A stretch of DNA of 64,000 nucleotides from Methanosarcina acetivorans C2A. Lineage in GTDB: Archaea > Halobacteriota > Methanosarcinia > Methanosarcinales > Methanosarcinaceae. This document shows positions 13,741 to 36,343 of this stretch, in pieces. The stretch is from contig NC_003552.1 of NCBI RefSeq assembly GCF_000007345.1, positions 3,348,001-3,412,000 on the forward strand. Direction: 5' to 3'. Under the pieces are notes generated by a model. It had not been told where the DNA came from. It saw nothing but the letters and a program-made list of their open reading frames with translations, and did not search any database. Made by a program: the position numbers and the translations under genes. Each line of letters begins with the position of its first letter. Position 1 is the stretch's first letter.

Positions 13741-13795
13741 TTAAGGTCAATATGAACAAAAATAACTTGAATAAGATGAAAGGAATGCAGCAATA

Positions 13796-14114: not shown

Positions 14115-14229
14115 AGTTCTACAATTGGAAAAGTTTATTATACTATTGGGTTACTTTTGGTGATGTATTTCAGAATGATTGCTCGCCTATATTTAAACTT
14201 GATATTGGTTAATACACAATTGTAGAACT
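14115..14229. repeat. 13-bp inverted repeat pair, 115 bp overall
   Basis: AGTTCTACAATTG (14115-14127) is mirrored exactly by CAATTGTAGAACT (14217-14229). The interval is non-coding. It could be a very small MITE or the ends of a decayed element; no target duplication was found. Confidence 0.4.
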
Positions 14230-14472
14230 AATATTAGTTTGGAGACTGCTTGCGTAGGATCAATTTTATATTCACGTATTAAAGACCAGTTTCTTTGGCA
14301 GTTTGCCTTAACCACTCATAAGGAAACTTATCCCAAAGAGAGTCTTCAAGAATAAATTAGGGATGAGGTGACATAAATTAGTATTGTTATGTTGATTACA
14401 TAAAAACGAATACATGAGAGATTCTCTAACGTTTAATAGATGACACATGAAGAACATTCTATATCTCTTAGC

Positions 14473-14865
14473 TTAACCTATGAGTTCTTCGACTTTTGAA
14501 CTACCATTTTTTCTTTGGATATAACGTTCGCATTGTTGTAATCTATCATATCCCAGCATAATACCGAGAATAAAATCTTCTTCATCAGTATACTGTGACA
14601 GCTTTTTATTCCCAATATTATTTATAACTCGGATGCATTTCTCGTTTCCAAAGAACACGTTTATATTTTTTTCCCCAACGGGATGGATGATATATGGTAT
14701 ATCTTTTTTTTGAAGTGTTGCGGTTATATCATTCAGAAACCTAATATGAGTCGTATGCAAAATCAGATCACGAAGGCCTTTTTGAAATTCATAAATATGA
14801 TGCATGAACACCTGCATATTTCCGTCTAAACTTCTTTTTAGTAATTTTTCTGTTGACTTATTCAA
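14473..14865 (-). CDS. DUF2023 family protein
   Basis: About 130 aa. The core MQVFMHHIYEFQKGLRDLIL ... VGEKNINVFFGNEKC ... EEDFILGIMLGYDRLQQCERY matches DUF2023, a small family usually encoded next to flavodoxin genes in anaerobes. Its biochemical role is unknown; a function in flavodoxin electron transfer or stress is suggested only by location. The start is taken as the TTG at 14865 because GAGGTG lies 7 bases before it. The family core itself begins at an internal ATG ~16 codons later. Confidence 0.8.
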   Translation of the reverse strand: MNKSTEKLLKRSLDGNMQVFMHHIYEFQKGLRDLILHTTHIRFLNDITATLQKKDIPYIIHPVGEKNINVFFGNEKCIRVINNIGNKKLSQYTDEEDFILGIMLGYDRLQQCERYIQRKNGSSKVEELIG

Positions 14866-15108
14866 TTGAATACACCTCAATAATCGGTTAGCTTTCCAGG
14901 TACAATATTTTTAGGAAATGGGATGATCTTACAGATATTCATTTACCATAATCCCTCATTCCTTTTCTCTTCTTTTCTCTTTAAGAAAATATGTTTTCCC
15001 AGATGGGGGGTTTGTACCGCCTCCAGAGCAACACCATCTATTGAACAAAAACTGTATTTCCCCAGCAGGAATGGAGGCTCACAAATAGTCTCCGAATCAT
15101 GGCTGGTC

Positions 15109-15200
15109 TTCTACTACGGATCTGTATCACTTTTACTACAAGGGGAGTGCGGAGAGTCACGAATGCCCCGACCCTCAAGTCGGGGATGAAGTGAACCCTA
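15109..15200 (+). mobile_element. Solo right-end remnant of a TnpB/IS605-type element
   Basis: A 7-bp-stem hairpin CCCCGAC-CCTCAA-GTCGGGG (15166-15185) follows a G-rich stretch and is followed by ATGAAGTGAACC. This arrangement is typical of the right ends of IS200/IS605 elements, where the guide RNA and 3' hairpin lie. No transposase gene is attached, so it is probably a leftover end. Confidence 0.4.
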
Positions 15201-15347
15201 GCCTCTTTTTGTTTTCGATTTAAATCTCTAAATCGTCATTTCTTTGTAAATTGATTGGAAATCGGACATGGGCCCGATAGCAAAGTTTCAATAACTTAGA
15301 TCAAGGAAACCTCGTTAAAGGGCACTGTAAATTATCCCCAAATAATC

Positions 15348-15652
15348 GGGCGGGCGGCCGCCCGCAATTTGATTTTAACGCTTGGTTAAAGCAGATTGAA
15401 CGTAGTTTCAAATATATTCACCAGTTCCCGTTCGGCATTCATAAATATATCGTTATCATGAGTAATATTTTCGGGCATATTTAATATTTTCGCATATCCA
15501 AAAACTTTTTTCAAGCCCCAATATTTGTGACCATAGTGAAATTAAGAAATTATTTATAGGAGTATACAAAACCCCGAGAAAAAGAAGTAAAAGCAAAAAA
15601 CAGTTAAAAAGTAGGACAGGCCAAAATCAAATTGCGTGCGGCCACCCCGCCC
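15348..15652. repeat. GC-rich 29-bp inverted repeats bracketing ~250 bp
   Basis: The left arm (15348-15376) contains GGGCGGGCGGCCGCCCGC followed by AATTTGATTTT. The right arm (15623-15652) is its reverse complement with about three mismatches. The arms are far more GC-rich than their surroundings. Between them, on the minus strand, a ~50-codon open stretch ending in AERELVNIFETTFNLL may be a gene remnant. The layout suggests a non-autonomous mobile element or a fold-back RNA/DNA structure. Confidence 0.55.
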
Positions 15653-15858
15653 TTCACAGGCTGTCCGGTAATTACCGATAGTAATAATGTCATAATCGTC
15701 CGTTTTTATTCTCTCTTTAGAGGATTTCGATTTACCTCTTATTTTTTTCTTCGCAAGAATTTTCCCTCAACCATTTCCTGAGAATTTCTCTTACTGATCT
15801 CTCTTTTTGACTTCTTTTGATCATTATTTTCTTACTTCAAGGATAGCTTTCGCTATCC

Positions 15859-16803
15859 TTAAAATACTCCTTTCCTTTTCAATGTCCTCAGTTGATGCAG
15901 ATTATAACAAAAAGCAGTAAACAACATCTTCATATTCACCCTTTCGACAGTGGTAACAAGAACCGTTCCTGAACTAAATACGTTTTTCGTTACTGCATAA
16001 ACTCTTTCCCCTGGCACTCTCTTTAAACTAATCCTCTTGTTTCGGATTATATCCCTTATTCCCAATGGATGTCCTCTAACTGCTCTTTTCATTGTTGCGG
16101 CAAAACCTTTTGCTTCTGCTCCAAAGTATCCTGTATCCCTGTAAACCACTTCGTTTTCCTCAGACAAATCAACTTGGGAATCATGAACTAACGCTGTTGT
16201 TGTTTTGAATCTTCGGATCAGTTCATAATCTCTGTCTATTATGCTATGAAGTTTGTAGCCAAAATATAACTTACTTCCCTTCTTTGTCCATGTTCCATCT
16301 CTACTTCTTCTTGTTTTTGCTTCATTTCCTCTTGGTTTGTCAGCTTTAGCATGTTCTGGATCTGAATGAATAAAAGTAGCATCCTGGATCATTCCTTTTT
16401 TGATTTTCAAACCATGAGAATCAAGTTGACTTTGTAACTCGTCCCAGATTTCCTCTTCCTTCTCGTTATCGATAATTCCCTTCCTGAACAACCAGACAGT
16501 GGTACTGTCTGGGATATAATCAGGAAAGCCGAGAAAATTCCTGAAAGAGAGGCGGTCAATACAATGCTTCTCAAGCTCTGGATCAGAAAGACCATGCCAT
16601 TGCTGCAAAACAAGCATCTTAAACATTACAATGACATCAGCTTCAGGCCTGCCGCCTGAAGCGGTTTTGTTTACATACATAGGTTCTAAAATCAAACGAA
16701 AACGTTTCCAGCCGATTAAGGATTCAAGTTCAGAAAGGTTATCTCCAACCAATTGAATGTGTTTGTATTTTTCTTTAAGAGCAAAATCAGTAAAGGTTTT
16801 CAT
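15859..16803 (-). CDS. IS5-family transposase
   Basis: An intact 314-aa DDE transposase. It has the IS5-group N-terminal region (KYKHIQLVGDNLSELESLI...GGRPEADVIVMFKMLVLQQW) and the first Asp in MIQDATFIHSD. The second Asp is in VYRDTGYFG and the Glu in RVPGERVYAVTKN. A perfect hairpin AAGGATAGC-TTTC-GCTATCCTT (about 15839-15861) overlaps the stop codon and may end transcription. Element ends could not be set with confidence. Confidence 0.9.
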   Translation of the reverse strand: MKTFTDFALKEKYKHIQLVGDNLSELESLIGWKRFRLILEPMYVNKTASGGRPEADVIVMFKMLVLQQWHGLSDPELEKHCIDRLSFRNFLGFPDYIPDSTTVWLFRKGIIDNEKEEEIWDELQSQLDSHGLKIKKGMIQDATFIHSDPEHAKADKPRGNEAKTRRSRDGTWTKKGSKLYFGYKLHSIIDRDYELIRRFKTTTALVHDSQVDLSEENEVVYRDTGYFGAEAKGFAATMKRAVRGHPLGIRDIIRNKRISLKRVPGERVYAVTKNVFSSGTVLVTTVERVNMKMLFTAFCYNLHQLRTLKRKGVF

Positions 16804-20326: not shown

Positions 20327-23056
20327 ATGGCAAATAAGGAAAGGTTGCATCCAATACCTTTAGTGTTGATAGCATTATTTTTCTTATTTTTGGTTTCAAA
20401 CTCGGCTGTAACGTTAGCTGCCCAGGAAATCAGGCTCTCAGAGGATATTGGAGTGAATGGAGAGACTTCTATTTACGGTGATAAAGTGGTGTGGTCATAT
20501 TGGGACAAAATTCATCTTTATGACTTAAAAACCGGAAATGATACTATAATTACTACGCCTGAACATTATTATGCATCACATCCTGCTATCTATGATAATA
20601 AAATTGTATTCTGTATTTGTAATTATAATGAGAACCCAGTTAGGTACAGACTTTACGTGTATGATATACTTAATTCTACAAGTTCGCTAATCGCAGAGAA
20701 TTTGTCCCATTGTGTTCCTGATATTTACGGTGATAGAATTGTGTGGGCTGAGGAGCGCAACTACAAGACCGGTGTCTATATGTACAACATTTCCACTCAG
20801 ATGAAAACTCAGATAACCACAAGCGGATCTGCAAGTAACCCTTCGATATATGAAAACAAAATAGTATGGGTGGGTTACGGGGACAATGGAACTATTACAG
20901 ATAGAAATAACAATTCCATTAGCATAGATAGTATTTGCATTTATGACCTTTCCACTAAGAAGGAAACTATGATCAGCACTGGCGGAAGAGCATATGCTCC
21001 CGTGATCTACGGTGACAGGATAGTATGGCAGGATAGTCGCAATTCAGACTTTACTAAGGGAAGAGGAGATGTCTACATGTATAACCTCTCAACTGAGAAA
21101 GAAAGCCGGATCTCTTACAGTGGGCAGTCCTCGTTAGGTTCGTCTCCAGCTATCTATGGTGATAGGATAGTGTGGCAGGACCACCGCAACGGAAAATACA
21201 ATATTTACATGTACAATCTTTCAACTCAGAAGGAGACTCAGATTACCACCAGTGGAAGTGCAATGGGACCTGATATCTACGGAGATAGGATAGTGTATAG
21301 GGATAATCGTCAAAGATTGCCCCCTGGTGATGGTTATTTTAGTGATGTCTATGTGTATGATCTCACTGCTGGACCCATAGAACCACAAGCTGGGTTTGCA
21401 TCCAATGTGACTTCCGGGATAGCACCTCTAACGGTATTATTCACCGATACTAGCACTGGTGGAGTTCCAACTTCCTGGCATTGGGACACTGGTGACGGTA
21501 TTTGCTCAACACATGCCATGAATGCAACACATACGTTTACAAAGCCAGGGGTGTATAACGTTACTTTAACAGTTGAAAATGAAGCAGGCAATAGTGCGGT
21601 AACGAAACCGAATTATATTACTGTAACTCCCCCACAACCACCAGTGGCAGATTTTTATGCTAATGTAACCTCTGGAAAAGCACCTCTAATGGTGTCTTTC
21701 TATGGTAGAATTATTGGCAAAGCTACAAGTAAAGGCGACGAACCTATTTCCTGGTATTGGGATTTTGGCGAAGGCATTTATTCAAAACACACCACGAATG
21801 CAATCCACACATTTACAAAACCAGGTATTTACACAGTAAATCTTACCGTAGGAAATTTTGTGGGTAATAGTACAGCGACAAAGCCAAATTACATAGTCGT
21901 TATCGATCCAAAAGCTCCCGATGCAAATTTTAGTAGTAATATTATCGAGGGTTATCTTCCCCTGACAGTACAGTTTAATGACACTTCTCAAAATGCAACG
22001 TCAAGGGTATGGGACTTCGACAATAATGGAAAAACAGACTCAACCGATGTAAATCCTGCTTATACATTTACAACACCAGGAATCCATACTGTTAACCTGA
22101 CAGTAAGAAATGCTTACGGCACTACCTCAAAAACTGATACAATAATTGTACTTACAGAAAATGAGATCCGGATTACAACCAGCGAATTAGCATCCTATCC
22201 TGATATCTATGGTAATAGAATAGTATGGCAAGACCTTCGCAACGGAAACTACGATATCTACATGTACGATCTTTCCACTTCCAGGGAAACCAGGATTACT
22301 GCTAATGAATCAAATCAGACATATCCTTCACTCTACTGTGATAGAATAGTATGGCAAGATGATCGTAATGGACAGTATGATATCTATATGTACAATATAT
22401 CTACTTCCAAAGAAACTCAAATAAGCACTAGCGGGCGCGCTCAGAGACCTAAAATATATGGTGACAGGATAATGTGGATGGATTATCGAACTAGAAATGA
22501 AGGTATTTACGTGCACGACCTATCCACTTCTAAGGAAACTCGGATAATTTCAAAAGGAATACCTCAATATATTAATATGCAAGGTAACTTGATAGTCTGG
22601 CATGATCTTCGATACATAAGTCCGGATATTTACATGTACGATCTCTCCACTTCCAAGGAAACTCAAATAACCTCCAATGGAGAAGCAACATTTCCTAACG
22701 TCTATGGTAACAGGATAGTGTGGCAAGAGTGGAGAGAAGATGTCACCACCGATATCTACATGTACGATTTATCCACTTCCAAGAAGACTCAGATTACTAC
22801 CAATAAATCAAGTCAATACTATCCTGCTATTTATGGTAATAAGATAGTGTGGCGGCAAGGGTATGATATCTACATGTACGATCTCTCCACTCAGAAGGAG
22901 ACTCGAGTCACTGCCAGTGGAAGTGCAACGGAACCTGATATCTACGGAGACAGGATTGTATATAGGAAGTATAGTCATCATAGATTACCCCTTGATGGTG
23001 TTTTTTTTAGTGATATCTATATGTATGATCTCACTGCTAGACCCATAGAGCCATAA
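20327..23056 (+). CDS. Large secreted beta-propeller/PKD surface protein, 3' end lost to a stop
   Basis: A 909-aa protein with a signal peptide (about residues 1-31) and a first TolB-like propeller (about 32-345). Three PKD domains follow (about 352-432, 438-525 and 530-608; signature WxxGDG/WDFGEG...HTFTKPGxYxVxLTV), then a second propeller (about 612-900). Blades follow the pattern DIYGDRIVWQDxRNGxYDIYMYDLSTxKETQIT. The second propeller ends DLTARPIEP-stop, where the first continues GPIEPQAGF into PKD1. The stop is CAA changed to TAA at 23054-23056, and PKD coding sequence continues after it. The surviving protein still exports two full propellers. Likely roles are envelope structure or adhesion. 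Confidence 0.82.
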   Translation: MANKERLHPIPLVLIALFFLFLVSNSAVTLAAQEIRLSEDIGVNGETSIYGDKVVWSYWDKIHLYDLKTGNDTIITTPEHYYASHPAIYDNKIVFCICNYNENPVRYRLYVYDILNSTSSLIAENLSHCVPDIYGDRIVWAEERNYKTGVYMYNISTQMKTQITTSGSASNPSIYENKIVWVGYGDNGTITDRNNNSISIDSICIYDLSTKKETMISTGGRAYAPVIYGDRIVWQDSRNSDFTKGRGDVYMYNLSTEKESRISYSGQSSLGSSPAIYGDRIVWQDHRNGKYNIYMYNLSTQKETQITTSGSAMGPDIYGDRIVYRDNRQRLPPGDGYFSDVYVYDLTAGPIEPQAGFASNVTSGIAPLTVLFTDTSTGGVPTSWHWDTGDGICSTHAMNATHTFTKPGVYNVTLTVENEAGNSAVTKPNYITVTPPQPPVADFYANVTSGKAPLMVSFYGRIIGKATSKGDEPISWYWDFGEGIYSKHTTNAIHTFTKPGIYTVNLTVGNFVGNSTATKPNYIVVIDPKAPDANFSSNIIEGYLPLTVQFNDTSQNATSRVWDFDNNGKTDSTDVNPAYTFTTPGIHTVNLTVRNAYGTTSKTDTIIVLTENEIRITTSELASYPDIYGNRIVWQDLRNGNYDIYMYDLSTSRETRITANESNQTYPSLYCDRIVWQDDRNGQYDIYMYNISTSKETQISTSGRAQRPKIYGDRIMWMDYRTRNEGIYVHDLSTSKETRIISKGIPQYINMQGNLIVWHDLRYISPDIYMYDLSTSKETQITSNGEATFPNVYGNRIVWQEWREDVTTDIYMYDLSTSKKTQITTNKSSQYYPAIYGNKIVWRQGYDIYMYDLSTQKETRVTASGSATEPDIYGDRIVYRKYSHHRLPLDGVFFSDIYMYDLTARPIEP

Positions 23057-23490
23057 GCTGGATTTACATCCAATGTAACTCTGGAACAACACCTCTAACG
23101 GTGTTATTTGCTGCTACAAGTAAAGGCAGAGCTACAGGTGAAGTCGAAGCACCTACATCCTGGTATTGGGATTTTGGCGATGGTATCAATTCAAAGGATG
23201 CCATGAATACGACCCACACGTTTACGAAACCAGGAAATTATACAGTAGGTCTAACTGTAGAAAATGCCGCAGGGAACAGTACAGCGATAAAGCCGGGTTA
23301 CATAGTTGTTACCGATCCAAGCACTCCGGTTGCAAACTTCAGTAGCAATGTTACAGAGGGTTGTATCCTTTGACAGTATAGTCTTATGATCTTTCCCAGA
23401 AAGCAGCTTCAAGGTACAGATGATGCTATTCGGATCCTGGAGAAACACATTCATAAGACTGATTATAAGATGGGAAATAAAATTGAGAAT
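23057..23490 (+). pseudogene. Decaying PKD-domain tail of the preceding gene
   Basis: Directly after the stop the sequence still encodes AGFTSNVT. Then one base is missing near 23077 and the reading moves to another frame. That frame gives a nearly complete PKD domain (TSWYWDFGDG...THTFTKPGNYTVGLTV, 23155-23320). A second PKD begins (NFSSNVTEG) but is broken by further frame changes and stops. The gene once carried at least two more PKD domains. Confidence 0.75.
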
Positions 23491-23563: not shown

Positions 23564-24097
23564 TTATGCGAAGCTGGATAAGGCAGTTAGTATCCAGACA
23601 AACACGGCCGGTAGGAAAAAGCTCAGACATATAATTATCATGGATTTGTGCATACTCACAGTATGCACAATCATGCCATCTACAATAAGGAGATACAGCT
23701 CGTAAATTAAAGCGACCGGGGTGATAAAAGGAACCGCTGAAAATATCAATGCAGCACTCGCATATAACGATAGCCTTAAAGTGCCTTCTAAATTTCCCGT
23801 TCCTCCCATTGCCTTATAAAGAAAATTGGCTACTAGAGCCTGGAGGATAAAAGAAGTGAATATTGCAAGAAGGACTGCTCCCAAAAGCGCGGAAAGAACG
23901 CCTAAATCCGAATAGCTGGATTCGGAACCGTATATTGTTAATATGCTGAAGGAGGCAAGTACAGATAAAAGCCAGGAAATGACGTAGTTGATTGCTGCAA
24001 AAGTTAGTGGCTCGGCATATCCTCCGGCCGATGGCATTTTCCAGTAAAATTCAGCTGGTTTAAGTACAACCTCTTTCCAGGTTTTGATGTACTCCAT
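23564..24097 (-). CDS. Yip1-domain membrane protein
   Basis: A 177-aa protein with four to five membrane segments and an N-terminal WKEVVLKPAEFYWKMP leader, the pattern of prokaryotic Yip1-domain proteins (KPxxFFxxM then multiple TMs). The central cytoplasmic turn YKAMGGTGNLEGTLRLSLYAS is typical. The role of archaeal members is unknown; they are thought to act in membrane organisation. The 3' end approaches the decayed PKD tail. Confidence 0.75.
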   Translation of the reverse strand: MEYIKTWKEVVLKPAEFYWKMPSAGGYAEPLTFAAINYVISWLLSVLASFSILTIYGSESSYSDLGVLSALLGAVLLAIFTSFILQALVANFLYKAMGGTGNLEGTLRLSLYASAALIFSAVPFITPVALIYELYLLIVDGMIVHTVSMHKSMIIICLSFFLPAVFVWILTALSSFA

Positions 24098-25556: not shown

Positions 25557-26291
25557 ATGAAATTATCCAAGGGCGTAAACTTCTTATTTTTGTCAATGTT
25601 CTTACTTTTATTTCTTGGAAGTACGGCATCAGCAACAAACATTGAGATCAGTGGTCAAACACAAAGCCAAGTTTTAGAGGGTCAGGTAATAAATTACACA
25701 TTAACAGTAAGCAATATTCCATCAGCTGCAGATTACATCTCTTTTGACACTGATCTGGTTAAAACTGGTAATTTCCATTTATATAATTTCACAAATTTGA
25801 ACATTACAAGTGATAATAACAAATTTGATCTTCCAGTTAATGAAAGCACAAAATCGATTATTGTTAATATTCATGGGCAAATCCCGCAAATAACCGAAAA
25901 GACACAGTATGGCAGAGTAACACTCATAACATATAAGCAAAGTACGGGTTATGCTTATGATAGGATAACACTCACAAATAGTAATGGAGATCTGATCGAA
26001 AGCGTGGAAACACGCCCCTTCGAAATCTCAAACCCGGAAGTTGAATCATTCCGAGAACAGATGAATAAAATAGATGATCCTTTTTTCAAGAACTATCTGC
26101 AGGACCTTCATGATAAAGGGCTTGTTACAGAATCAAAAACACTTGCTGACCATCTGACTGAAAATGATAAATGGCCTTCATACTGGTGGCTTATCCTGGG
26201 CGCAATTATAGGTCTTATAATCGGTGTTATAATCGGTGTTAGAATTAAAAATGGAAGTGAAGAGGAGGTCTTGAATGACGGAAGCTTTTAA
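25557..26291 (+). CDS. Anchored exoplasmic protein, first gene of the tubulin-like operon
   Basis: A 244-aa protein of unrecognised family. It has a signal peptide (about residues 1-26, core FLFLSMFLLLFLGSTASA). A beta-rich ectodomain (about 27-160) follows, of the type seen in Ig-like/CARDB surface modules (QVLEGQVINYTLTVSNIPSAA). A helical region comes next, then one C-terminal membrane segment (about 207-229, LILGAIIGLIIGVIIGV) and a short acidic cytosolic tail. The topology places the domain outside the cell. The next gene overlaps it by 17 bases, so the two are co-translated and the protein is probably part of the same machine, perhaps a sensor or receptor. Confidence 0.75.
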   Translation: MKLSKGVNFLFLSMFLLLFLGSTASATNIEISGQTQSQVLEGQVINYTLTVSNIPSAADYISFDTDLVKTGNFHLYNFTNLNITSDNNKFDLPVNESTKSIIVNIHGQIPQITEKTQYGRVTLITYKQSTGYAYDRITLTNSNGDLIESVETRPFEISNPEVESFREQMNKIDDPFFKNYLQDLHDKGLVTESKTLADHLTENDKWPSYWWLILGAIIGLIIGVIIGVRIKNGSEEEVLNDGSF

Positions 26292-29200
26292 GTGTCCCAC
26301 AGACCTAACAATTTTGGGTCTTGGAGGATGTGGAAAAAAACTTGCTCGTGAAATATGCAGTTATGATTGGTTACTTCACGAATACTCCAAGGGTATGAAC
26401 AGGCTTCGGATTTTCACTATGGATACGGATGCCAGTGAGCGTTTTCAGGATAAAAAATTGGAAACAGATATTATGGAGAAAGTAAATAAGTTGAATGGAA
26501 CAGGAAACATCCTGTTTCAGTCCTACTTTCTACCATACCTTGCAAGTGTTGAACATGTAGCCGATTTAACCAGTTCTAAAGTTTTAGCAAGCATAAAAGA
26601 TTCCCAATCTGTTACTGCAAATACGTGGTGGTTGCACGATCCCGAAAATGGAATTACTTTCAAGGATCTGAAAAATATTGATCCTTACCTCAAGGATGAT
26701 TTCGGGGGTGGTGTTCATCGCAGAAGAGCTATTTCGAAAGCTATTCTATATAAAGTTTTGAATGAAGGGCAATCGAATGGGTTTCCGTCATTTTCATCTC
26801 CAGGAGATGTAGCCATGATAGTAGGGATAGGGGGAGGTAGTGGCTCTGGAATGTTCATAGACCTTGCAAGATATATAAAAAAAGGACGGGATAATAAAAT
26901 CTATCTATTTGCAGTGCTTCCGACAACAAAAGAAGGAGTAAAAGAACAGCTTAATGCTGCCATTTCTATTACTGAGCTTGAATACTTAAATGTGCTTCAA
27001 GAGGAGGGACTTTTCGATCATGTAATTTTTACATCCCTGGGCCCTACGGAATATGCCAATGGGCAGCAGGAGTTAAAAGAAGTACGTGACTTTGATTCAG
27101 TCTTCCCGCAGATTCTTCTGAACTTCTTTTATATAGAGAAAGGTGATCTCCAAGTCAGTGATACCAGAAAATTCTATTCATCTTTTATTTTTGCCGATTC
27201 GCATATAATCGAATATCCCGTGGAAGAACTTAGGAAATTAAAGAAGCAGTACAGCCAGATTGTTGATGAATTGGGAGAGATCGTTACTGCCAGGAAAGCT
27301 GTAAATGAGGAAATAGAAAAACTCCTTAGTAGTTTTAATATCAGTGGAGAGTCCATTCCAACTGAGGAAGTATTTGAGGTCATGAAAAAGGAGTATAAAA
27401 ACATTGAAATGGTATGGACAAACAACATCGCAGAACTGCTTAACTATCACAGTGTGGTAAAAATAAAGGACTTCATTCAATATAATGTTTCGGATGTTCA
27501 ATTTGATCAGATCAAAACATATAATGACTTAACATCCTATATTTCACGAGTCAAGTATTGTACTCAAGGTGTCGAACAATATAAAATCAAAGATGAAATC
27601 GATAAAAAATTATCTACCTTGATTCCATCAGCTCTTGAGACTCTGGAAAATACTGCAAGTTTATTCAAACGGGTTTCATTTGTTGGGACTGAAGAGTGCA
27701 GGTCCGTAATGATTGATATCCTGAAGGGAAAACTGGAAATCTCTTCTCTTGTTGGATCGATGAAAGCCAGGAATCAGGAAATCCAAGCTCTGGACACGAA
27801 GCTAAAGGCGACTGAGCAGAAGATAGGTGAGTTGGATTCTCTATCCAGCAATGTTGAAGATAAAATTGAACAGATATTAAATGACATAGATAGTGACCTT
27901 GCATCCTATGTACAAATCACAAAGAATATCAAAGCCCTCCCGACTTTCGAAAAAGAATTGAAGAATAAATCAGATGACTATATAAATAAATTAAAAAGTG
28001 GAAAGGTTAAAGAGAAAAAGAAAGATAACTGGTATTTATCTGCTGGCAGAAAACAACTTAGGGAAGAAATTGATAATTATTCAAGTGAGATCAAACTTGA
28101 TTTTAATAGCTTAAATAAGTTTATGGATGCAGTTACTGATTATTATTATTATGATTATATGCTCGAAGAAATTGAAAAGTTCAGCGTAAAAACGTTTTTA
28201 ATGGGAAACAAACAGGCACTAAAAAGCAGGTATATTCAAGGAAAGGGAAAAGCAGAAGAATATATCAATTTAAATAAAAGGGATTGGGGAATTGTTATCG
28301 CTCCTCCCTTTGAAATAATTATACCTGATAATTTTTTGATTTTAGGACTCATGAAAAAGGCAGTTGAACTTATAGAACAAATCTATAACCCAATATACAG
28401 AGATCTAAATAATGACAGTCTTAACATTGAAAAACTGAAAGAAATATGCGAATCCGGTGACAGGGTAATAATTAGAAAGTCTTTGAGAGAATATCTAAGA
28501 GATCTTTACTTAAATGCTGCTGGTTACTTCAAAAAGAAGCAAGAGCTAAATAAATCCAAAGAAGATCTGGAAGTAGAACTCAGAGAAAAGAATCTTCTTT
28601 TAAATATGCTTGAAAATGTCGATGCCGCCAAGAACGAAACATTTTCAATCCGAAGAGATTACGGTCAGCATTATGATATATTCCACACACTATTTGAGAA
28701 CATCAATCAAAAAAGAGATGTTGAGACGACAAGTGGAATATACAAATCCAAACTTGGAAGTGTCAACCCCAAGATATTGTCTCTTGTGGAAGAAGGGTCT
28801 AATATGAGTAACCTTGACAAGGACGTAGACGGGACATCAGAACTTAATAAACTCATAAACCTCGCAAAATCCAAATATTACAACTTGTTTGAAAATAGAA
28901 ATCTTGGCGTAAATTCTTTAACGATTCCAATTACAGAGACCGAGAAGTGGAATTTTGATAAAGCTGCTGTAGTTGTATCATCTACTTCCAGCTATGTACG
29001 TTCTGAACTCATGAAAAGTACTATTGAGGAAGACATTATCTTTAAGAACATGTCTCTGAGAAGTCGCAACGATTCCCGTTGTACTGCTCATGAATATACA
29101 AGACCCTGGGAGATTGTTCTGACATTTTTTGCAGCATCAAGTTTTCTTGACAACATTTATCCACTGGTGGCCGGAGGAGGTTACTGGGAAATTTATGCAA

Positions 29201-29394
29201 AAAATAAGGAAAATATACTACATCATGTCCTGAAACTTCAGGATGGAAAATATATAACTCGAAACGCCCTCTTAAGCTCAAAAAACGCAGGAAGAATTGC
29301 ACAAAATATAGATCAAAAGGGGCTTAAGGAAATCAAAGACCTTTATGAAATAAAGTCATTAAAGGGGGCTTTGGGGCTTGAAAATAAGCAATAA
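26275..29394 (+). CDS. Large tubulin/FtsZ-like GTPase (Tubulin_2-like)
   Basis: A 1039-aa protein. The N-terminal ~350 residues show a tubulin/FtsZ nucleotide-binding fold. The first glycine loop is ILGLGGCGKKLA (residues 13-24). The hallmark T4 loop is VGIGGGSGSGMF (183-194), a serine version of the tubulin GGGTGSG signature, followed by the T5-like segment IYLFAVLPTTKEG. The rest is unlike FtsZ: coiled-coil stretches (about 500-580 and 755-795), a basic linker, and a globular C-terminal domain. Length and layout fit the poorly studied 'tubulin-like' family of bacteria and archaea. GAGGAGGT lies five bases before the ATG. It would polymerise or act as a GTP switch at the membrane with its neighbours. 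Confidence 0.85.
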   Translation: MTEAFKCPTDLTILGLGGCGKKLAREICSYDWLLHEYSKGMNRLRIFTMDTDASERFQDKKLETDIMEKVNKLNGTGNILFQSYFLPYLASVEHVADLTSSKVLASIKDSQSVTANTWWLHDPENGITFKDLKNIDPYLKDDFGGGVHRRRAISKAILYKVLNEGQSNGFPSFSSPGDVAMIVGIGGGSGSGMFIDLARYIKKGRDNKIYLFAVLPTTKEGVKEQLNAAISITELEYLNVLQEEGLFDHVIFTSLGPTEYANGQQELKEVRDFDSVFPQILLNFFYIEKGDLQVSDTRKFYSSFIFADSHIIEYPVEELRKLKKQYSQIVDELGEIVTARKAVNEEIEKLLSSFNISGESIPTEEVFEVMKKEYKNIEMVWTNNIAELLNYHSVVKIKDFIQYNVSDVQFDQIKTYNDLTSYISRVKYCTQGVEQYKIKDEIDKKLSTLIPSALETLENTASLFKRVSFVGTEECRSVMIDILKGKLEISSLVGSMKARNQEIQALDTKLKATEQKIGELDSLSSNVEDKIEQILNDIDSDLASYVQITKNIKALPTFEKELKNKSDDYINKLKSGKVKEKKKDNWYLSAGRKQLREEIDNYSSEIKLDFNSLNKFMDAVTDYYYYDYMLEEIEKFSVKTFLMGNKQALKSRYIQGKGKAEEYINLNKRDWGIVIAPPFEIIIPDNFLILGLMKKAVELIEQIYNPIYRDLNNDSLNIEKLKEICESGDRVIIRKSLREYLRDLYLNAAGYFKKKQELNKSKEDLEVELREKNLLLNMLENVDAAKNETFSIRRDYGQHYDIFHTLFENINQKRDVETTSGIYKSKLGSVNPKILSLVEEGSNMSNLDKDVDGTSELNKLINLAKSKYYNLFENRNLGVNSLTIPITETEKWNFDKAAVVVSSTSSYVRSELMKSTIEEDIIFKNMSLRSRNDSRCTAHEYTRPWEIVLTFFAASSFLDNIYPLVAGGGYWEIYAKNKENILHHVLKLQDGKYITRNALLSSKNAGRIAQNIDQKGLKEIKDLYEIKSLKGALGLENKQ

Positions 29395-31057
29395 TTTGGT
29401 CTTAGAAGTGGTTTTGGTTTTAGTTGGGGTCCTCCTATCCATTATTTTTTTAGATATTAGTGAGCTCTACTGGAAATCAGATTCTCACTGGCTTATACAG
29501 TTAATTCTCAGCTTCATAGTATCGTCCTTAATTTTCGGTGCAATCGGAATGGTTCTTGAGCGAAACTCAAGGACCGGAGGAATTTTTTTACTTGCAGTAT
29601 TCTTATCAATTACATATGTCCTTTATGAAAGAGGATTCTTATTGAGTATATATGGTATCTATGGGTTCATACTTGGAATGTTAGAAGGTGGATACTTAAG
29701 TTTTTACTCCTACTTTAACAATCGATTTGACAACCTTGCGATATATTCACGTAGATTCGTCACATACTTTTGTGTATTAACCTTATTGTATCTTGCTTTT
29801 ATCAATCTAGAGTATTTTCAAGAAATTTCACAGTTCAGTGCAAGTGATACAGACAAGCTTTTTAAAACTATAATTATGGTTGGATCTTTAGTTGCATTTT
29901 CTTTCCTTCTGAGAGCGACCATTCGTGGCATAAGGGCTTATGATGTATTCATATATGGTCCTTCGGGATCAGGAAAATCATTGTTATTGCTTGCTATTTA
30001 CAAACAGTTTATTTCATTTTATAGTGGCAAGAGAAATGAATTTATTCTGTCGGAGGGGAATAAAGAGGATTTAAAGATTGAAAGTATGCTTATCGCTTTA
30101 GAAAATGGAGAACTTCCAAAAAGCAACCTTCGGACAGACCTGGCAATGTATAAATTGTCAGGCAAAAATAGATTAAAACCCGTAGGAATTACATTTGTAG
30201 ATTACGGGGGAGAGCATACAGATAATTTTGACAAAGTACGGTATAAGGAAACAATTGAAGGACTGCGCAAACTCTTTTATTCAGATGCCTCTTACCTGAA
30301 AAAAATACTGGAAAATGCAGGTACTACTTCTGAAGTGGACGAAATACTGAGACAATATGTAGGTACTCCCAAACTGAATAAAATTCTGGGGGATACAGAC
30401 GCTTCAGAAATAAAGAAAATGTATGGTAATGATAACACACGACGCACTGAAAAAGATATAACTAAATCGAAAAAGAGCCTGATCTCTCTACTGAATAAAA
30501 AACTGGATGGATTGGAAAAAAAACTGGGAGATTTGGACGGTATACAGGACCTGCAAGATTATCATCAAAATGAATTTGCAGAGTATGTAGACAAAATCAT
30601 TTTTGCTTGTGTATATAAAAGGTTTGAAAGTGCAGGGAAAATCATTTTTTTGGTAGATGGAGATTATGTTGTTGACTTCCATAATGAGAACAATAACGGC
30701 AAAAACCATCTAATAAAACTCTTCAGCAATTACTCAGACATAATAAATAAATTTGGGAATGAGAAATCTTACGCGATTGTAGTTACTAAGACTGACAAGT
30801 TTGAAAATCTTTCAAATATTCTGGAAAACTCAACTGAAGCCAAGGCGATAGAGCATAAAGTATATGATATGTTCTGCGAGATTCCTACATTCAAAGAAAT
30901 TGTACATATGTCAAATCGGACGCCGATCTATCTGTACACGGTCAGCGTGGACGCAACCATGGAGCCTCACATAAAGGATGAGGATACAGAAATGCAGCAA
31001 AAAAGTCTAAAAATATATCCATGGAGAGTTGGAGAGATTGAAAAATTCAGCTTTTGA
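29378..31057 (+). CDS. Multi-TM protein with cytosolic P-loop GTPase domain
   Basis: A 559-aa protein. About five membrane segments fill residues 8-183. The soluble domain then carries a P-loop GPSGSGKS (194-201), a switch-II-like VDYGGE (274-279) and a TKTD motif (470-473), the order expected of a GTPase (G1, G3, G4). A long charged insert (about 300-400) separates G3 from G4. The start is a TTG overlapping the previous stop by 17 bases, with a GGGGG run upstream, so translation is coupled. Double-GTPase or 'GTPase-associated' conflict systems contain comparable membrane GTPases; assignment to one is inference. It may recruit or regulate the tubulin-like protein. Confidence 0.78.
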   Translation: MKISNNLVLEVVLVLVGVLLSIIFLDISELYWKSDSHWLIQLILSFIVSSLIFGAIGMVLERNSRTGGIFLLAVFLSITYVLYERGFLLSIYGIYGFILGMLEGGYLSFYSYFNNRFDNLAIYSRRFVTYFCVLTLLYLAFINLEYFQEISQFSASDTDKLFKTIIMVGSLVAFSFLLRATIRGIRAYDVFIYGPSGSGKSLLLLAIYKQFISFYSGKRNEFILSEGNKEDLKIESMLIALENGELPKSNLRTDLAMYKLSGKNRLKPVGITFVDYGGEHTDNFDKVRYKETIEGLRKLFYSDASYLKKILENAGTTSEVDEILRQYVGTPKLNKILGDTDASEIKKMYGNDNTRRTEKDITKSKKSLISLLNKKLDGLEKKLGDLDGIQDLQDYHQNEFAEYVDKIIFACVYKRFESAGKIIFLVDGDYVVDFHNENNNGKNHLIKLFSNYSDIINKFGNEKSYAIVVTKTDKFENLSNILENSTEAKAIEHKVYDMFCEIPTFKEIVHMSNRTPIYLYTVSVDATMEPHIKDEDTEMQQKSLKIYPWRVGEIEKFSF

Positions 31058-33494
31058 TCTTGATGTAACTCCAGAGAATTTTGTTTTTAATTCAACAGGC
31101 CAGTTGTTAAAAGGCAATGAATATTATGAACAATATACTGAACTGGCTAAGCAGCTTTACGAAAAAAGAAGTGCGTTCTACCTGGAGTTAAGAGATAATG
31201 AAATTATTTTTGGGTGCAGTTTGAATGTAAAGGAGAATAGTGGTGGAGAAGAAAGAATAGTATTCATACAGACCTACAATAATTTACCACCACAAGATAT
31301 TAGTTTAGATATCACTTCAGTAAAAAACGTTTATAAATATATCAAATCTGAGATTATAAATCTTTACTCAAATATGTACCAATTAGTTGGACTATGGGAA
31401 GAAAACGACTACATAAATATCAGAGATCGAGCGATAAGCGACGATGCTCTAAAATACACTGCTGATAGGATTAACTCAGGCAAAAAAGTATCTGTTAAGA
31501 TCTCTGAGCTCAATGTCGGTCTCTCCTTTGTCCTCAAATTAGTTGCTATACTGGGGTACAGATATCCATTAACATTTGATGTTTCTCAATATTCTTCTAA
31601 TTTTGATGTTTCTGTTAGTCTAACCGAACCAAATCCAGATTTTGAGATCGAAAAATATAGAAAGTACCGGAAAAATAACGTGGAAGAATCGTGGGGTTTT
31701 TATAATGATTTGGGTGGAGAATCATTAAAGCATAAAGTTTCGAATCCAGAAAAAAGTACGGCTCCATCATACTCTGTTGATGACAGATTTAAAGTTGAAC
31801 TCTTTCATAGATTTTCCAACGATGTCTATAACTTGGACTACGGAGTATACAACTCGACAGGCCAGCTGTTAAAAGGCAATGAGCACTTTGAACAATACAC
31901 GGAACTGGCAAAGCAGCTTGATACAAAAAGAAGTGCTTTTTACCTGGAGTCAAGAGAGGATAAAATTATTTTAGGGTGCGGTTTGAGTGTAAAGGCGGAT
32001 AATGGTAGAGAAGAAAGAGTTGTGTTCATACATGTCCACAATAATTTACCATCACAGCACAAAATTACTGACTGTGAAATCCAATTTTTGAAGAAGTTCT
32101 ATGGACGGATTAAGTCTGAGATTAAAACTATTTACTCGAATAAATATCAATTAGTTGGGTTATGGGAAGAAAATGACTACAAAAATATCGAAGATCGGGT
32201 TATAAAAGATGATATTCTGATATACACTGCTGGTAGGATCAATTCTGGCAAAAAAGTATCTGTTAAGATTACTGATCTCAGTGCCGGTCTCTCCTTTGTC
32301 CTCAAATTAGTTACTCTGCTGGGGCACAGATATCCATTGATGCTTGATGTTTCTCAATATCCTTCAAATTCTGAGGTTTCTGTTAGCCTAATCAAACCAA
32401 ATCCAGATTTTGAGATCAAAGAAAATGGAGAGTACCGAATAATTAATGCGAAAGAATCGTGGGATTTCTACAAAGAGTTGGGTGAAGAATCAGTTAAAAA
32501 TAAAACTTCTGGTTTAAAAATAAATAAAAATTCATCAGATTCCGTAAGTCTTATCGTAAAAAAGATATTAAAGACACCATCCGATTATTATAGTTCGGAT
32601 AAATTTATAGATAATTTTGATGATAGAGAAAAAGTTGAAATATTTAAGAGATTGATTCAAGAAAACTCTAAAACAAAGGGCCTAACTTCTGATGATAGAG
32701 ACAAAGTCGAAATGTTTAAGAAATTGGTTCAGGAAGACTCTAAAATAAACAATCCAACCAGCAAAGTTCTCACAAACATTTATCACAAAATTAAATCGCC
32801 GGAATGTAGGAAAGAGATTTATGAAATATCACTTTCAAACGATGTCTATGTTGAGAATCTCGTTAAGGATCTTCTAAGAGTTATATACAAGGAACATAAC
32901 AGAGATTTGTTCAATTTACTCTTTGATTATTCCGACAACGAGATTGCACAGGGCTATAAAAAGAGTTCTAAGTACGATTCTTTTAAGAATGAGGTTGAAA
33001 AATCACTAAAATACTTAGAAGATTCCGACAAGGTTAACTTTGTAAAATATATTGCGAGTGAAGCACCTTCTAAACCAAAAGCCAGAGGAAAAATCCTGCT
33101 AAAAGCTCTGATCGAAGATCTGGTTGAGCGAAAAGGCAATAATGACTTTCTTTCAAAGCTAAGTGAAGAAGAAGCTGAGAACCTGGATAAAATAATCCGG
33201 GATTCAAACTACTTAAGTTCAATGAAAAAGATGAAAAAAAGTAAAAGAGACAAGAAAATCAAAATAGCTTCTTATGCTATTATTGCTATTATTTTAGTTT
33301 CTATTCTTCTTATGTCTTATTTTGTCTATATTCACCCTGCAGGAATTGATGGAGAGAACAACTCCTCGATAAACAAATCTGAAAATGATTCGATAGATCT
33401 GGCGATGACTTCTCAAGGCAATAATACAAATAGTTCAGAGGAAGCTGTATTCTTAGACCGGATAAAAAATCGCATCATCTCCTTGATTTCCTGA
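31029..33494 (+). CDS. Tail-anchored protein with large tandem duplication, fourth gene of the operon
   Basis: An 821-aa protein of unrecognised family. Two ~220-residue copies follow each other (about residues 18-236 and 272-490). Each starts YNSTGQLLKGNE...YTELAKQL and contains YQLVGLWEENDY and GKKVSVKI; the offset is 254 residues. A helical region (about 500-740) leads to one membrane segment (about 742-765, IASYAIIAIILVSILLMSYF) and a short Ser/Asn-rich exterior tail. Most of the protein is therefore cytosolic. It overlaps the previous gene by 29 bases. The start is a TTG, at 31029 or, with better GGAGAG spacing, at 31038. The arrangement resembles GTPase-associated partner proteins with repeated N-domains. 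Confidence 0.75.
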   Translation: MERLKNSAFDLDVTPENFVFNSTGQLLKGNEYYEQYTELAKQLYEKRSAFYLELRDNEIIFGCSLNVKENSGGEERIVFIQTYNNLPPQDISLDITSVKNVYKYIKSEIINLYSNMYQLVGLWEENDYINIRDRAISDDALKYTADRINSGKKVSVKISELNVGLSFVLKLVAILGYRYPLTFDVSQYSSNFDVSVSLTEPNPDFEIEKYRKYRKNNVEESWGFYNDLGGESLKHKVSNPEKSTAPSYSVDDRFKVELFHRFSNDVYNLDYGVYNSTGQLLKGNEHFEQYTELAKQLDTKRSAFYLESREDKIILGCGLSVKADNGREERVVFIHVHNNLPSQHKITDCEIQFLKKFYGRIKSEIKTIYSNKYQLVGLWEENDYKNIEDRVIKDDILIYTAGRINSGKKVSVKITDLSAGLSFVLKLVTLLGHRYPLMLDVSQYPSNSEVSVSLIKPNPDFEIKENGEYRIINAKESWDFYKELGEESVKNKTSGLKINKNSSDSVSLIVKKILKTPSDYYSSDKFIDNFDDREKVEIFKRLIQENSKTKGLTSDDRDKVEMFKKLVQEDSKINNPTSKVLTNIYHKIKSPECRKEIYEISLSNDVYVENLVKDLLRVIYKEHNRDLFNLLFDYSDNEIAQGYKKSSKYDSFKNEVEKSLKYLEDSDKVNFVKYIASEAPSKPKARGKILLKALIEDLVERKGNNDFLSKLSEEEAENLDKIIRDSNYLSSMKKMKKSKRDKKIKIASYAIIAIILVSILLMSYFVYIHPAGIDGENNSSINKSENDSIDLAMTSQGNNTNSSEEAVFLDRIKNRIISLIS

Positions 33495-34196
33495 CACAAG
33501 GATAAAAACTCACATTGTCTCCCTGATTTCCTGAGACTGGTTTTTTGATTAGCAGGTAAATAGAACGCATCCGTCAGCTTGCCTGGCGGCCCTTCACCAA
33601 AAAGCAGAAAGATTTAAGGAAAAATAAATAAAAGCAGAAGCTTGAAAATGCAGTAAACCAGCAAAAGTAAGCAGAAGTTGTTTACTTCCTGCTTTCGGCA
33701 GGTAACTTGTTTTTCTCATAATATTTTTACTGATAGCGTTTTTGCTAGAAAACACATTATTCCTGATACTAGTACATCGATTCCATATATCCTCAATAAA
33801 CCATGAATAAAAACAAGTGAACACAAATATTTTCAATTCGTGTTTATTCTTGTCCGCTTGTGGTTTTCTCATAGAAAAAACATTAACCAGTGCTGATTTC
33901 AAAGTCCAATTCTTCCCATAATTTGGAATCGATGTACTAGACATTATTGCAAAAACGGCTCATTGTTTATATATGTCGTGAGATTTGGGCCATATGTTAA
34001 CCAGTTACGAACCCGACATATATGCACATAATGTTTGAAAAACGCCATCATTAAAAATACTTAAAATCTAATGTCGACCTGCCGAATATAGGTTACTTAT
34101 TCTCTTCTTCCCTTTTTTTGACAGGCCGCTTTCCTTCGTCGAGTGGACAGAACAATTAGGTATGGCTAATAAGGTTTGATGGGTCAGAAGATTTAT
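33495..34196. other. Intergenic region with a short palindromic element
   Basis: No supported gene. A hairpin-forming stretch at 33561-33592 (TAGAACGC-TCCGTCAGCTTGCC core) recurs inverted at 44803-44834 with about 27 of 31 positions identical. A 116-codon minus-strand frame at 33594-33944 has no ribosome site and low-complexity content and is not called. Confidence 0.4.
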
Positions 34197-34439
34197 CCCA
34201 CTTTCCGCAGTAAATTTTCGTATATTCACATTTTTTCCTGCTATCGATTTTCAATAAAAAGTGGATTTATTGGACTTTTATGCAGGAGGTAAAGCAGCTA
34301 TATGGTGTATCATAGAGACAAAAAAACGATATCATTCAATTTTCACCAAGTTCCATTAAAAGTCCAAATTAATTTGATTTGTTTCAAAAACGCTATCAGG
34401 GAAAATATTGATTTTTGAAAAAATACTGCGGAATGTGGG
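34197..34439. mobile_element. 243-bp MITE, copy A
   Basis: The ends are inverted repeats: CCCAC-TTTCCGCAGTA at the left and its near mirror TACTGCGGAATGTGGG at the right. The interior is non-coding. The reverse complement of 58492-58734 has the same 243-bp length with only two differences. No 7-bp target duplication is visible at this copy. Confidence 0.8.
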
Positions 34440-34720: not shown

Positions 34721-36343
34721 TCAATCATACTTGCCAAAAAGAGCACTTATGCTTTCGCTTGTAACAATGCCTATTATACGGTGCTCGGAATCTATTACGG
34801 GGAGTGCGGAAATCGAGTGTTTTTCCATTATTGAGGATGCGTGTTCAATCTTTTCATCCTCATATACGTACTTTACATCCCGCGTTATGATTTCGTCCAG
34901 CTCGTTGATTTTGCATGCCACTGCTTTTGTGATATCCCAGGATGTGACTATGCCTTCGAGTTTTCCGTCCTCTGAGATGACCGGCAGGTGGCTTACGCAT
35001 TCTTTTACCATGAGCTTTGAGGAGTGTTCGATGGTTTCGTCTCTCGATACCGTATAGAAGTTCCGGTTCATGACATCGCTGACAAGGATGTGCGAGAGGA
35101 AGCTCCTTAGCAGGTAGCTCAGCTGTCCTTCTTCAAGCAGGAACGCATCGTGCCCGTGCTGGGATCTGATTTCTTCATATCTGGCATCGACTCCGTTTGC
35201 AGTAAGAGCCGATACGATTTCCTGGGACTGGTAAGGGGGATAGAGCCAGTCTGAAGATATGGAAATTACAAGGTATTTTGCAGTAACTCCGGAAAAGCCC
35301 TCTATAAGGGAGCCGTTCTTTGCAAGGTCAAAGTAGTCCACAGCTTTTGTAATGTACAGGTAAGAATTGGCATCAAAACGTTTTGTGAAATTATCTCCTT
35401 TGTAGTTCAGGTAGCTCTCGACCTGGAAGTTTGGGGTAAAGTCGTAGGAGAGCTCGGAGGAGATCTCAGAGGATATTGAGGATATTTCAGAGGATATTTC
35501 GGATGAATTCTTTCCTTCCGTACCCGTCGTGCCTTTTATCCCTGATTTATCGGTATCCTGCTGGAGCCTTCCGAACTTATTCTGCATTGAAGCGTCGCTC
35601 AGGTATGTAATGTGTCCTATCATTCGGGCGAGGGCAAGCCCCTGGGAAGGTATCTCTTTTCCGTAATAGTCTCCGCCGTTCCATTTCGGGTCATCGGTTA
35701 TGGCTTTCCTGCCGATTGCTCCGAATGCGATTTGCTGCGGAGTTGTGGAGGCTGTGGTCGCTATTGCAATTGCTTTTCTTACCATTTCGGGGTAGCTGAC
35801 CGTCCACTGGAGTACCTGCATTCCCCCCATGGAACCGCCTGCAACCGCAAAAAGTTGTTTTACTCCGAGGTGCTCTATCAGTTTTTTCTGGGCATTTACC
35901 ATGTCCTTGACCGTAATTACGGGAAAGGAGATGCCGTAGTGTTTTCCGGTTTCGGGGTCTATGGAAGAAGGACCTGTAGAGCCTTTACAGCCTCCCAGGA
36001 TGTTTGAGCAGATGACGCAGTATTTTTCAGTGTCAAATGCCTTATTGGGGCCGATTACGATCTCCCACCAGCCCGGTTTTTTGTCACCCTCATGAAACCC
36101 GGCAGCATGGGCATCGCCTGTAAGGGCGTGGCAGATCAGGATGACGTTGCTCTTATCGGCATTCATCTTCCCGTACATTTCGTACTCTACCCTGACGCCG
36201 GAAAGGGTTTTTCCGCTCTCAAGGCCGAAGGTCCCCGGGATTTTATAGTTCATCGAGCGGACTATCCCGATGCTCTGGCCTTTTTTTCCCGAAAAAAGTT
36301 TTTTGGAAGAGTTCACGGAAGAATTCCCGGAAGAAACCGCCAT
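34721..36343 (-). CDS. metX: Homoserine O-acetyltransferase with C-terminal CBS domain pair
   Basis: A 540-aa alpha/beta-hydrolase-fold enzyme that acetylates homoserine with acetyl-CoA, the entry to homocysteine and methionine. The nucleophile is the Ser in AVAGGSMGGMQVLQW. The Asp is in ISSDWLYPP and the His in QHGHDAFLLEE. The usual family length is ~370-490 aa. Two additions are seen: a Ser/Glu/Ile repeat insert (about residues 270-305, SSEISSEISSISSE) before the NFQVESYL segment, and two CBS domains (about 415-540; SHLPVISEDGKLEGIVTSWD and SALPVIDSEHRIIGIVTSE). CBS domains usually bind adenosyl ligands, so SAM or AMP feedback is a reasonable inference. It lies 6 bases after metY with overlapping ribosome site, hence an operon. 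Confidence 0.93.
   Translation of the reverse strand: MAVSSGNSSVNSSKKLFSGKKGQSIGIVRSMNYKIPGTFGLESGKTLSGVRVEYEMYGKMNADKSNVILICHALTGDAHAAGFHEGDKKPGWWEIVIGPNKAFDTEKYCVICSNILGGCKGSTGPSSIDPETGKHYGISFPVITVKDMVNAQKKLIEHLGVKQLFAVAGGSMGGMQVLQWTVSYPEMVRKAIAIATTASTTPQQIAFGAIGRKAITDDPKWNGGDYYGKEIPSQGLALARMIGHITYLSDASMQNKFGRLQQDTDKSGIKGTTGTEGKNSSEISSEISSISSEISSELSYDFTPNFQVESYLNYKGDNFTKRFDANSYLYITKAVDYFDLAKNGSLIEGFSGVTAKYLVISISSDWLYPPYQSQEIVSALTANGVDARYEEIRSQHGHDAFLLEEGQLSYLLRSFLSHILVSDVMNRNFYTVSRDETIEHSSKLMVKECVSHLPVISEDGKLEGIVTSWDITKAVACKINELDEIITRDVKYVYEDEKIEHASSIMEKHSISALPVIDSEHRIIGIVTSESISALFGKYD

Follow-up and report, generated by a model that had tools for sequence, protein, structure and literature searches.

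Four overlapping genes of Methanosarcina acetivorans C2A, encoding a giant tubulin-like protein, a membrane GTPase and two further proteins with parts predicted to face the outside of the cell, are the subject of this work. They lie within the window that we analysed, a stretch of 64,000 nucleotides (NC_003552.1, positions 3,348,001 to 3,412,000), and all coordinates given for them are positions of that window. Read on the forward strand, they are T1 (25557..26291, 244 amino acids, aa), T2 (26275..29394, 1039 aa), T3 (29378..31057, 559 aa, with a TTG start) and T4 (31029..33494, 821 aa, again with a TTG start). A previous interpretation made from the letters alone, hereafter the sequence-only reading, had the four genes overlapping by 16-29 bases: the four overlapping frames are present, the overlaps being measured at 17, 17 and 29 bp for T1/T2, T2/T3 and T3/T4 respectively. 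The window copies of all four genes are free of internal stops. The corresponding junctions are tight in relatives too, often 4, 14 or 26-29 bp, and the TTG start of T4 is retained in many of them. A scan of the region between 23.0 and 35.5 kb against Rfam returned no match, and PADLOC, applied to the four proteins, gave weak matches only (LmuB, AbiLi and mad8), which we put down to the generic likeness of coiled coils or P-loops.

T2 is a tubulin homologue, as judged from its sequence and its predicted fold. It matches the Pfam family Tubulin_2 (PF13809) with 32.8 bits, where the cut-off is 27 (E 5.9e-8), and it also resembles the Tubulin/FtsZ family (E 1.4e-5), while a profile built from 30 relatives retrieves TubZ among the sequences of the PDB (4xcq, E 5.6e-6), with CetZ and FtsZ sequences also matched. 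Its AlphaFold2 model has a mean predicted local distance difference test score (pLDDT) of 86.5 and finds CetZ2 with Foldseek (4b45, E 1.3e-6, probability 1.00); there were 129 matches at E<=0.001, and all of the 50 listed are tubulin-superfamily chains. The tubulin or FtsZ-like fold that had been proposed for the 1039-aa protein, together with the advice to look for it with profile hidden Markov models and predicted structures, was thus well founded. The tubulin-type domain (aa ~10-315) is followed by a helical part, a long coiled coil (aa 493-574), more helices and a C-terminal alpha/beta domain (aa ~883-1028), in line with the secondary structure of the model, which has a helix at 493-574, a helical region at 583-812 and an alpha/beta arrangement over the last ~150 aa. 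T2 is the only Tubulin_2 protein of the M. acetivorans genome; three control genomes, this one among them, gave a positive result for the family.

The nucleotide-binding loops of T2, which bear the customary tubulin labels and should not be confused with the gene names, were followed in an alignment of 30 homologues. The T1-type loop, GLGGCG (aa 15-20, 26317..26334), has G17 and G20 in 30/30 sequences and G18 in 29/30, and is followed by the near-invariant K21 (28/30); in the T4-type signature, GGGSGSG (aa 186-192, 26830..26850), G186, G187, G188, G190 and G192 are invariant. The T7 loop is a more delicate matter. Makarova and Koonin (2010; PMC2875224) could not identify the T6-H7 elements in the FtsZ-like 1 (FtsZl1) family. 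A candidate, GDLQVSD (aa 290-296, 27142..27162), with clade consensus GDINISD, stands before a strand aligned with S7 of FtsZ; its aspartates D291 and D296 are kept in 22/30 and 23/30 homologues. It is retained in most loci that also carry T1 and missing from most haloarchaeal homologues devoid of T1 and T4, and we tentatively take it as the T7 equivalent of the T1-bearing lineage.

T3, remotely similar to DO-GTPase2, appears to be a P-loop GTPase anchored in the membrane. About five N-terminal transmembrane (TM) segments precede a domain (aa ~190-555) predicted to be cytosolic, the P-loop fold of which was judged from its motifs and from Pfam. Among 28 homologues, the G1 or Walker A motif GPSGSGKS (aa 194-201, 29957..29980) keeps P195 in 27 and G194, G199 and K200 in 26; the G3 or Walker B motif DYGGE (aa 275-279, 30200..30214) keeps D275, Y276 and G278 in 26 and E279 in 23; and the G4 motif TKTD (aa 470-473, 30785..30796) keeps T470 in 27, K471 in 26 and D473 in all 28. 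These three motifs and the two glycine-rich loops of T2 are all where the sequence-only reading had placed them, and they are not chance resemblances, since T2 passes the Tubulin_2 cut-off and the T3 motifs are near-invariant. The same reading had spoken of a five-TM GTPase; the membrane GTPase stands, the number being approximate, as a hydropathy scan gives mostly four to six TM segments ahead of the GTPase motifs in relatives. The Pfam family DO-GTPase2 is matched by 20/28 members at E<=0.05 (best 1.8e-6), the window protein itself giving E 0.012, below the cut-off, and DO-GTPase1 is matched by four of the 28. With the T3 profile, the sequences of the PDB yielded no more than short matches to RecA at the P-loop, besides one chance membrane match; a search of plasmids with T3 returned nothing.

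The first and last genes of the operon account for its predicted outer side. T1 has a signal peptide, an exoplasmic domain of ~180 aa, a C-terminal TM segment (aa ~207-230) and a short acidic cytosolic tail, as befits the exoplasmic single-pass protein announced earlier. An alignment of 26 members shows E41, L67, G107, P110, F155, G188 and L189 to be invariant, and four of the five N-x-S/T sequons of T1 lie within the ectodomain. Pfam matches of the 26 T1 relatives are all weak (DUF7927 and DUF11, for example), and the T1 profile found nothing among PDB sequences.

T4 combines alpha/beta and helical domains predicted to be cytosolic with one TM helix (aa ~742-763) and a 57-aa tail, predicted to be exoplasmic, that contains five N-x-S/T sequons (helix and tail, 33252..33491). 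In 21 members of the family the tails, 2398 aa in all, contain 185 sequons where their shuffled versions have 60 +/- 6, a threefold excess, whereas the parts before the TM helix contain 57 against 63 +/- 7, with no enrichment. From this excess, confined as it is to the tails, we conclude that the T4 tail is very probably exoplasmic and glycosylated; one T4 relative has a PKD domain. A simple tail-anchored protein, as T4 had been described, is rejected in view of the 57-aa tail and its five sequons, while the large duplication that had been noticed along with it is real: copy 1 (aa 1-238, 31029..31742) and copy 2 (aa 259-494, 31803..32510) are identical at 62.5% of their amino acids and 79.5% of their nucleotides. 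No other aligned homologue has the second copy.

The fold predicted for this region gives a lead to its function. In the AlphaFold2 model of aa 249-821 (mean pLDDT 77.9, predicted TM-score 0.52), copy 2 is modelled with pLDDT mostly 75-96 over its blocks, and shows a longin-like beta-beta-alpha-beta-beta-beta-alpha succession (aa ~270-367) followed by an alpha/beta part (aa ~373-471); a helical part comes next in the model. Such an arrangement is reminiscent of the DENN module, which is made of a longin domain, an alpha/beta DENN domain and a helical d-DENN domain (PMC3521125). Foldseek places first DENND1A, a guanine nucleotide exchange factor (GEF; E 6.7e-3, probability 0.97), then C9orf72:SMCR8, TagF and DENND1B, with GATOR/SEA components and a Thorarchaeota Roadblock protein within the top 50, so that the closest neighbours of the model (DENND1A/1B, C9orf72-SMCR8) are mostly regulators of GTPases. 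A longin/DENN-like nature of the cytosolic region of T4 is suggestive. Together with the bitopic topology and the sequon-rich tail, it makes of T4 a candidate GTPase regulator or a second sensor, which fits these features better than the tail-anchored adaptor of the sequence-only reading.

That the four genes travel together, the point which that reading had proposed to check in other genomes, is now plain. Besides the window, 24 fetched loci have the order T1-T2-T3-T4, from Methanosarcinaceae to Methanomicrobiales-like families of the Halobacteriota; named carriers of relatives are Methanosarcina spelaei, Methanogenium marinum and haloarchaea such as Haloferax profundi. Across 393 Halobacteriota genomes, all 39 strong matches to T1 directly precede, within ~1.6 kb, a Tubulin_2 match that has the same orientation, and the pairwise distance matrices of T1 to T4 are correlated over 21 loci (r 0.92-0.98, Mantel p <= 0.0005). 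T1-T4 is one co-inherited module, the correlation of distances meaning shared inheritance and not contact. A scan of genome contigs with single sequences returned nothing, while a scan with alignments gave 12 loci. The distribution is patchy: the operon is found in 14 of 44 good genomes and in 11 of 30 other Methanosarcina genomes, some of the other Methanosarcina having a version 45% identical at a different site, and some relatives having one component present as a broken copy.

Away from this core, the module is rearranged around its tubulin and its GTPase. Haloarchaeal and other distant loci often have T2-T3 alone, with different single-pass proteins downstream, which bear CarboxypepD_reg ectodomains, one of them with a kinase-like N-terminus; in Methanomicrobiales-like loci a membrane protein with PEGA repeats is encoded by an additional, fifth gene, and in Methanohalobium evestigatum a T2-T3 pair on plasmid pMETEV01 adjoins a T4-position gene annotated PGF-pre-PGF. 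Since the T4 profile finds only a weak match among the T4-position proteins of other lineages (L082, hhalign E 5e-4, probability 31%), these may be analogues. Some loci have additional copies. In one (L069, genome G285, 13071-16358), a second, divergent T2 paralogue follows a complete T1-T4 set and a two-TM gene, placing two giant tubulin-like proteins together, as reported for firmicute systems; three T2 copies in a single metagenome-assembled genome (G019: L023, L024 and L026), two of them nearly identical and truncated where their contigs stop, are probably an assembly duplication.

Because T2 is a homologue of tubulin by sequence and predicted fold, T3 has its GTPase motifs behind TM segments, the gene order is fixed, T1 goes with Tubulin_2 in 39/39 loci, the distances are correlated and the junctions overlap, we propose that the operon encodes one trans-envelope machine in which T3, as a GTPase switch, would control a membrane-cortical scaffold made of T2. 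We give this reading a probability of roughly 0.45. The T1 ectodomain and the C-terminal tail of T4 would be exposed on the side of the S-layer or glycocalyx and report on the state of the surface; the sequons of the T4 tails, the PKD domain, the downstream proteins with PEGA or CarboxypepD_reg domains and the PGF-pre-PGF gene all point to such an outward placement. T3 would be the GTP switch embedded in the membrane, and the longin/DENN-like N-terminal region of T4 would most likely contact it, promoting nucleotide exchange or hydrolysis. Once switched, T3 might recruit or license T2 at the membrane, where T2 would assemble as a cortical scaffold that locally organises or remodels the envelope, the signal running in this scheme from outside to inside. 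Much of what had been guessed from the letters (an ectodomain that senses, a TM GTPase that switches, a tubulin that assembles) is in keeping with the tubulin fold, the membrane GTPase, the joint travel of the genes and the exoplasmic placement; T4 as a tail-anchored adaptor has to be given up.

Several observations weigh against this proposal. T2 has its T1 and T4 loops, but its catalytic T7 loop is identified only tentatively and is absent in many haloarchaeal relatives, so that dynamic polymerisation is not assured. The likeness of T4 to DENN is held as a lead only, because no Foldseek match of the model reaches E<=1e-3, the TM-scores with DENN are 0.1-0.3 (root-mean-square deviation ~11 A) and sequence families lend no support: of the Pfam families displayed for 22 T4 members (E<=1), none is DENN, longin or Roadblock, and the T4 profile found nothing among PDB sequences. 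We consider doubtful the bolder view that T4 is a prokaryotic DENN-like module borne on a glycosylated external tail, acting as GEF or GTPase-activating protein for a membrane TRAFAC GTPase that controls the assembly of a giant tubulin; this would be an archaeal outside-in pathway from GTPase to cytoskeleton, and a possible relative of the eukaryotic DENN regulators. Finally, the patchy distribution shows that basic growth does not require the machine.

The first of these points feeds the rival explanation that survives best, one compatible with any physiological role. The tubulin domain of T2 could be a platform for GTP sensing or assembly in a static membrane complex, with no filaments at all, an option already named by Makarova and Koonin when they did not find the T6-H7 elements (PMC2875224); the large C-terminal additions and the lack of family-wide conservation of the T7-like motif would suit it. 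Strict conservation of the nucleotide loops speaks for a cytomotive protein, as does the fact that, according to the same authors, all characterised members of the superfamily form filaments. A T2 that is not cytomotive seems to us a real possibility, if not a probable one.

What the machine is for can be asked separately. It might be a conflict or immune system, in which T1 or T4 would sense an invader when it reaches the envelope, T3 act as a threshold switch and assembly of T2 kill the infected cell or seal it. This is what has been proposed for bacterial relatives (PMC7159879), and the relationship of T3 to DO-GTPase2, the patchy and insertable distribution and the presence of plasmid copies in haloarchaea and Methanohalobium would agree with it. 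The module is, however, retained clade-wide and tightly co-inherited, a pattern unlike a rapid turnover of effectors; no toxic effector was recognised, no GAP1 or FNIII component was found, and a search of viral contigs with T2 returned no copy. Among the families listed at E<=1e-10 for 138 proteins flanking 30 loci, the only PADLOC matches are of protein-kinase and MADS type, those to kinases being generic, and a defence island as the context is rejected on these matches. The role in conflict with viruses that had been suggested earlier accordingly looks unlikely, and we judge an organisation of the cell surface or cortex likelier than defence. A related, non-immune proposal would have the module tie the cytoskeleton to the S-layer or exopolysaccharide and govern cell packing through adhesion or aggregation, Methanosarcina occurring either in aggregates or as single cells. 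The exoplasmic partners, sequon-rich or of PEGA, CarboxypepD_reg or PGF type, would be appropriate to this end, and the protein kinases of haloarchaeal loci echo the genome-context analysis of 2010 (PMC2875224); yet many carrier lineages are not known here to aggregate, and about two-thirds of the sampled Methanosarcina genomes do without the operon, which makes this proposal rather improbable. As for a decaying or chance cluster, the duplication peculiar to one T4 lineage and the broken copies of some relatives are all that would recommend it, and it can hardly be entertained when the four window genes have no stops and their order and motifs are conserved over the Halobacteriota.

The surroundings of the operon retain a trace of its history. 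Upstream lies a gene of the GATase family (9322-10035) and downstream lies metX (34724-36343). In genomes without the operon or with the other type of it (G001, G002, G007, G010, G020, G022 and G026, for example), these two genes are only 1-4 kb apart; the operon stands between them in the window and in two other genomes (G027 and G030), and adjoins the GATase gene in two more (G004 and G014). Its insertion at the GATase-metX site, or its loss from there, thus predates the divergence of those species, and the existence of the empty site supports insertion. Gain by insertion or transfer is likely; it was not recent and is unlinked to miniature inverted-repeat transposable elements (MITEs), a recent MITE-marked acquisition in M. 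acetivorans being ruled out by the position of the operon beside the same GATase gene in these four genomes. The sequence-only reading, which invoked horizontal gain on account of an AT-rich location beside MITEs, was therefore probably right about the event and wrong about its evidence. MITE-like repeats are indeed present downstream (33688-34439), and a search found none upstream; the G+C content is 35.0% in the operon, 44.9% over the 13 kb downstream and a similar 36.5% over the 15 kb upstream, so that the operon is not sharply AT-distinct towards its upstream side.

Copy numbers of these repeats derive from searches. An element of ~175 bp (33766-33940, ~15 near-identical copies in the genome) is nested inside a second one (33688-33777 and 33935-34094, ~10 or more copies), and this pair is followed by a repeat of ~245 bp (34195-34439, ~9 copies). 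No Pfam family matches an open reading frame located in these repeats (33597-33944). The MetX-like alpha/beta hydrolase encoded further on is fused to C-terminal CBS domains, and some of its relatives match as two separate pieces. On the other side of the operon (20327-23373), a 909-aa surface protein with PKD and beta-propeller-like features ends at 23056 and a related PKD fragment of 90 aa is found at 23101, which suggests a broken or shortened gene. A Yip1-domain membrane protein (23564-24097, E 1.3e-12) is encoded on the strand opposite to the operon; as no homologue of it was found in related loci, its proximity looks coincidental.

It remains to set the operon among the systems already described. 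The sequence-only reading held such proteins to be hardly characterised. FtsZl1 and an archaeal membrane-associated GTPase were the subject of a paper of 2010 that names M. acetivorans in the legend of its superfamily alignment and predicts membrane remodelling for these systems (PMC2875224), and systems pairing tubulin with DO-GTPase were described, and proposed to be conflict systems in bacteria, by Kaur et al. in 2020 (PMC7159879). T2 resembles FtsZl1 in its N-terminal tubulin-type domain, its coiled coil and its mostly helical C-terminal region, its GGGSGSG fits the GGGTG[ST]G-type signature, and its operon includes a membrane-associated P-loop GTPase, as in archaeal FtsZl1. It differs in having the obligate partners T1 and T4, which may be the archaeal partner families A1-A2 mentioned in that paper, and in its neighbours: no gene for a vWA, OmpA or kinase protein was found next to the window operon. 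A majority of FtsZl1 members, not all, are in an operon with a vWA-domain protein; there is none among the scanned window neighbours, and VWA is not among the top families of the 138 flanking proteins.

With the DO-GTPase/GAP1-N2 systems, the operon and its relatives share a TRAFAC-type GTPase, a tubulin-domain protein and extracellular domains such as PEGA. The Walker B glutamate, which Kaur et al. consider a mark of the DO-GTPase, corresponds to that of the DYxGE motif of T3 (E279), and an N-terminal TM region is sometimes present in their proteins too (PMC7159879). In two haloarchaeal loci, T2 is accompanied by a pair of T3-like GTPase genes, an arrangement known from the 'double' systems (L083, 2818-5046 and 11706-13076; L084, 3456-5543 and 5562-6992). 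By contrast, the T1-T4 type has a single GTPase and T4 at the place of GAP1, and it is found in archaea, whereas the systems of Kaur et al. are those of firmicutes and actinobacteria. No vWA component was found, and FNIII repeats are absent from the T1 and T4 families and from the scanned window neighbours. Pfam includes GAP1 models, and none of them appears in the families listed as matched (E<=1) by the 22 T4 and 26 T1 relatives.

The comparison with CetZ, FtsZ and TubZ is one of core fold and of T1 and T4 loops, T2 being two to three times longer, with a coiled coil and new C-terminal parts, and its T7 loop being less secure. The comparison with the DENN module is one of predicted order (longin-like, alpha/beta, helical), of best Foldseek matches (DENND1A/1B) and of position beside a GTPase gene; T4 departs from DENN and from MglB/Roadblock in lacking a significant sequence or structure score, in having a partner that is not of Rab or MglA type, and in its TM helix and external tail. 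Our search of the literature with the presumed M. acetivorans locus tags found no study of the four genes, nor do the papers that were found describe an experiment on any giant Tubulin_2 protein, a family known since 2010. With the system reduced to four co-inherited genes, in a genus open to genetic manipulation, two questions become directly testable, namely whether giant Tubulin_2 proteins polymerise and what switches them. The fold proposed for T4, if true, would connect GTPase regulation in prokaryotes with the longin/DENN modules that serve membrane traffic in eukaryotes. Set against the known systems, what is new here is the strict linkage of four genes with T1 and T4 as fixed partners (should these not be the A1 and A2 families already mentioned), the topology of T4 and the lead given by its fold, the T7-like candidate, the archaeal link to DO-GTPase2 and the history told by the empty site.

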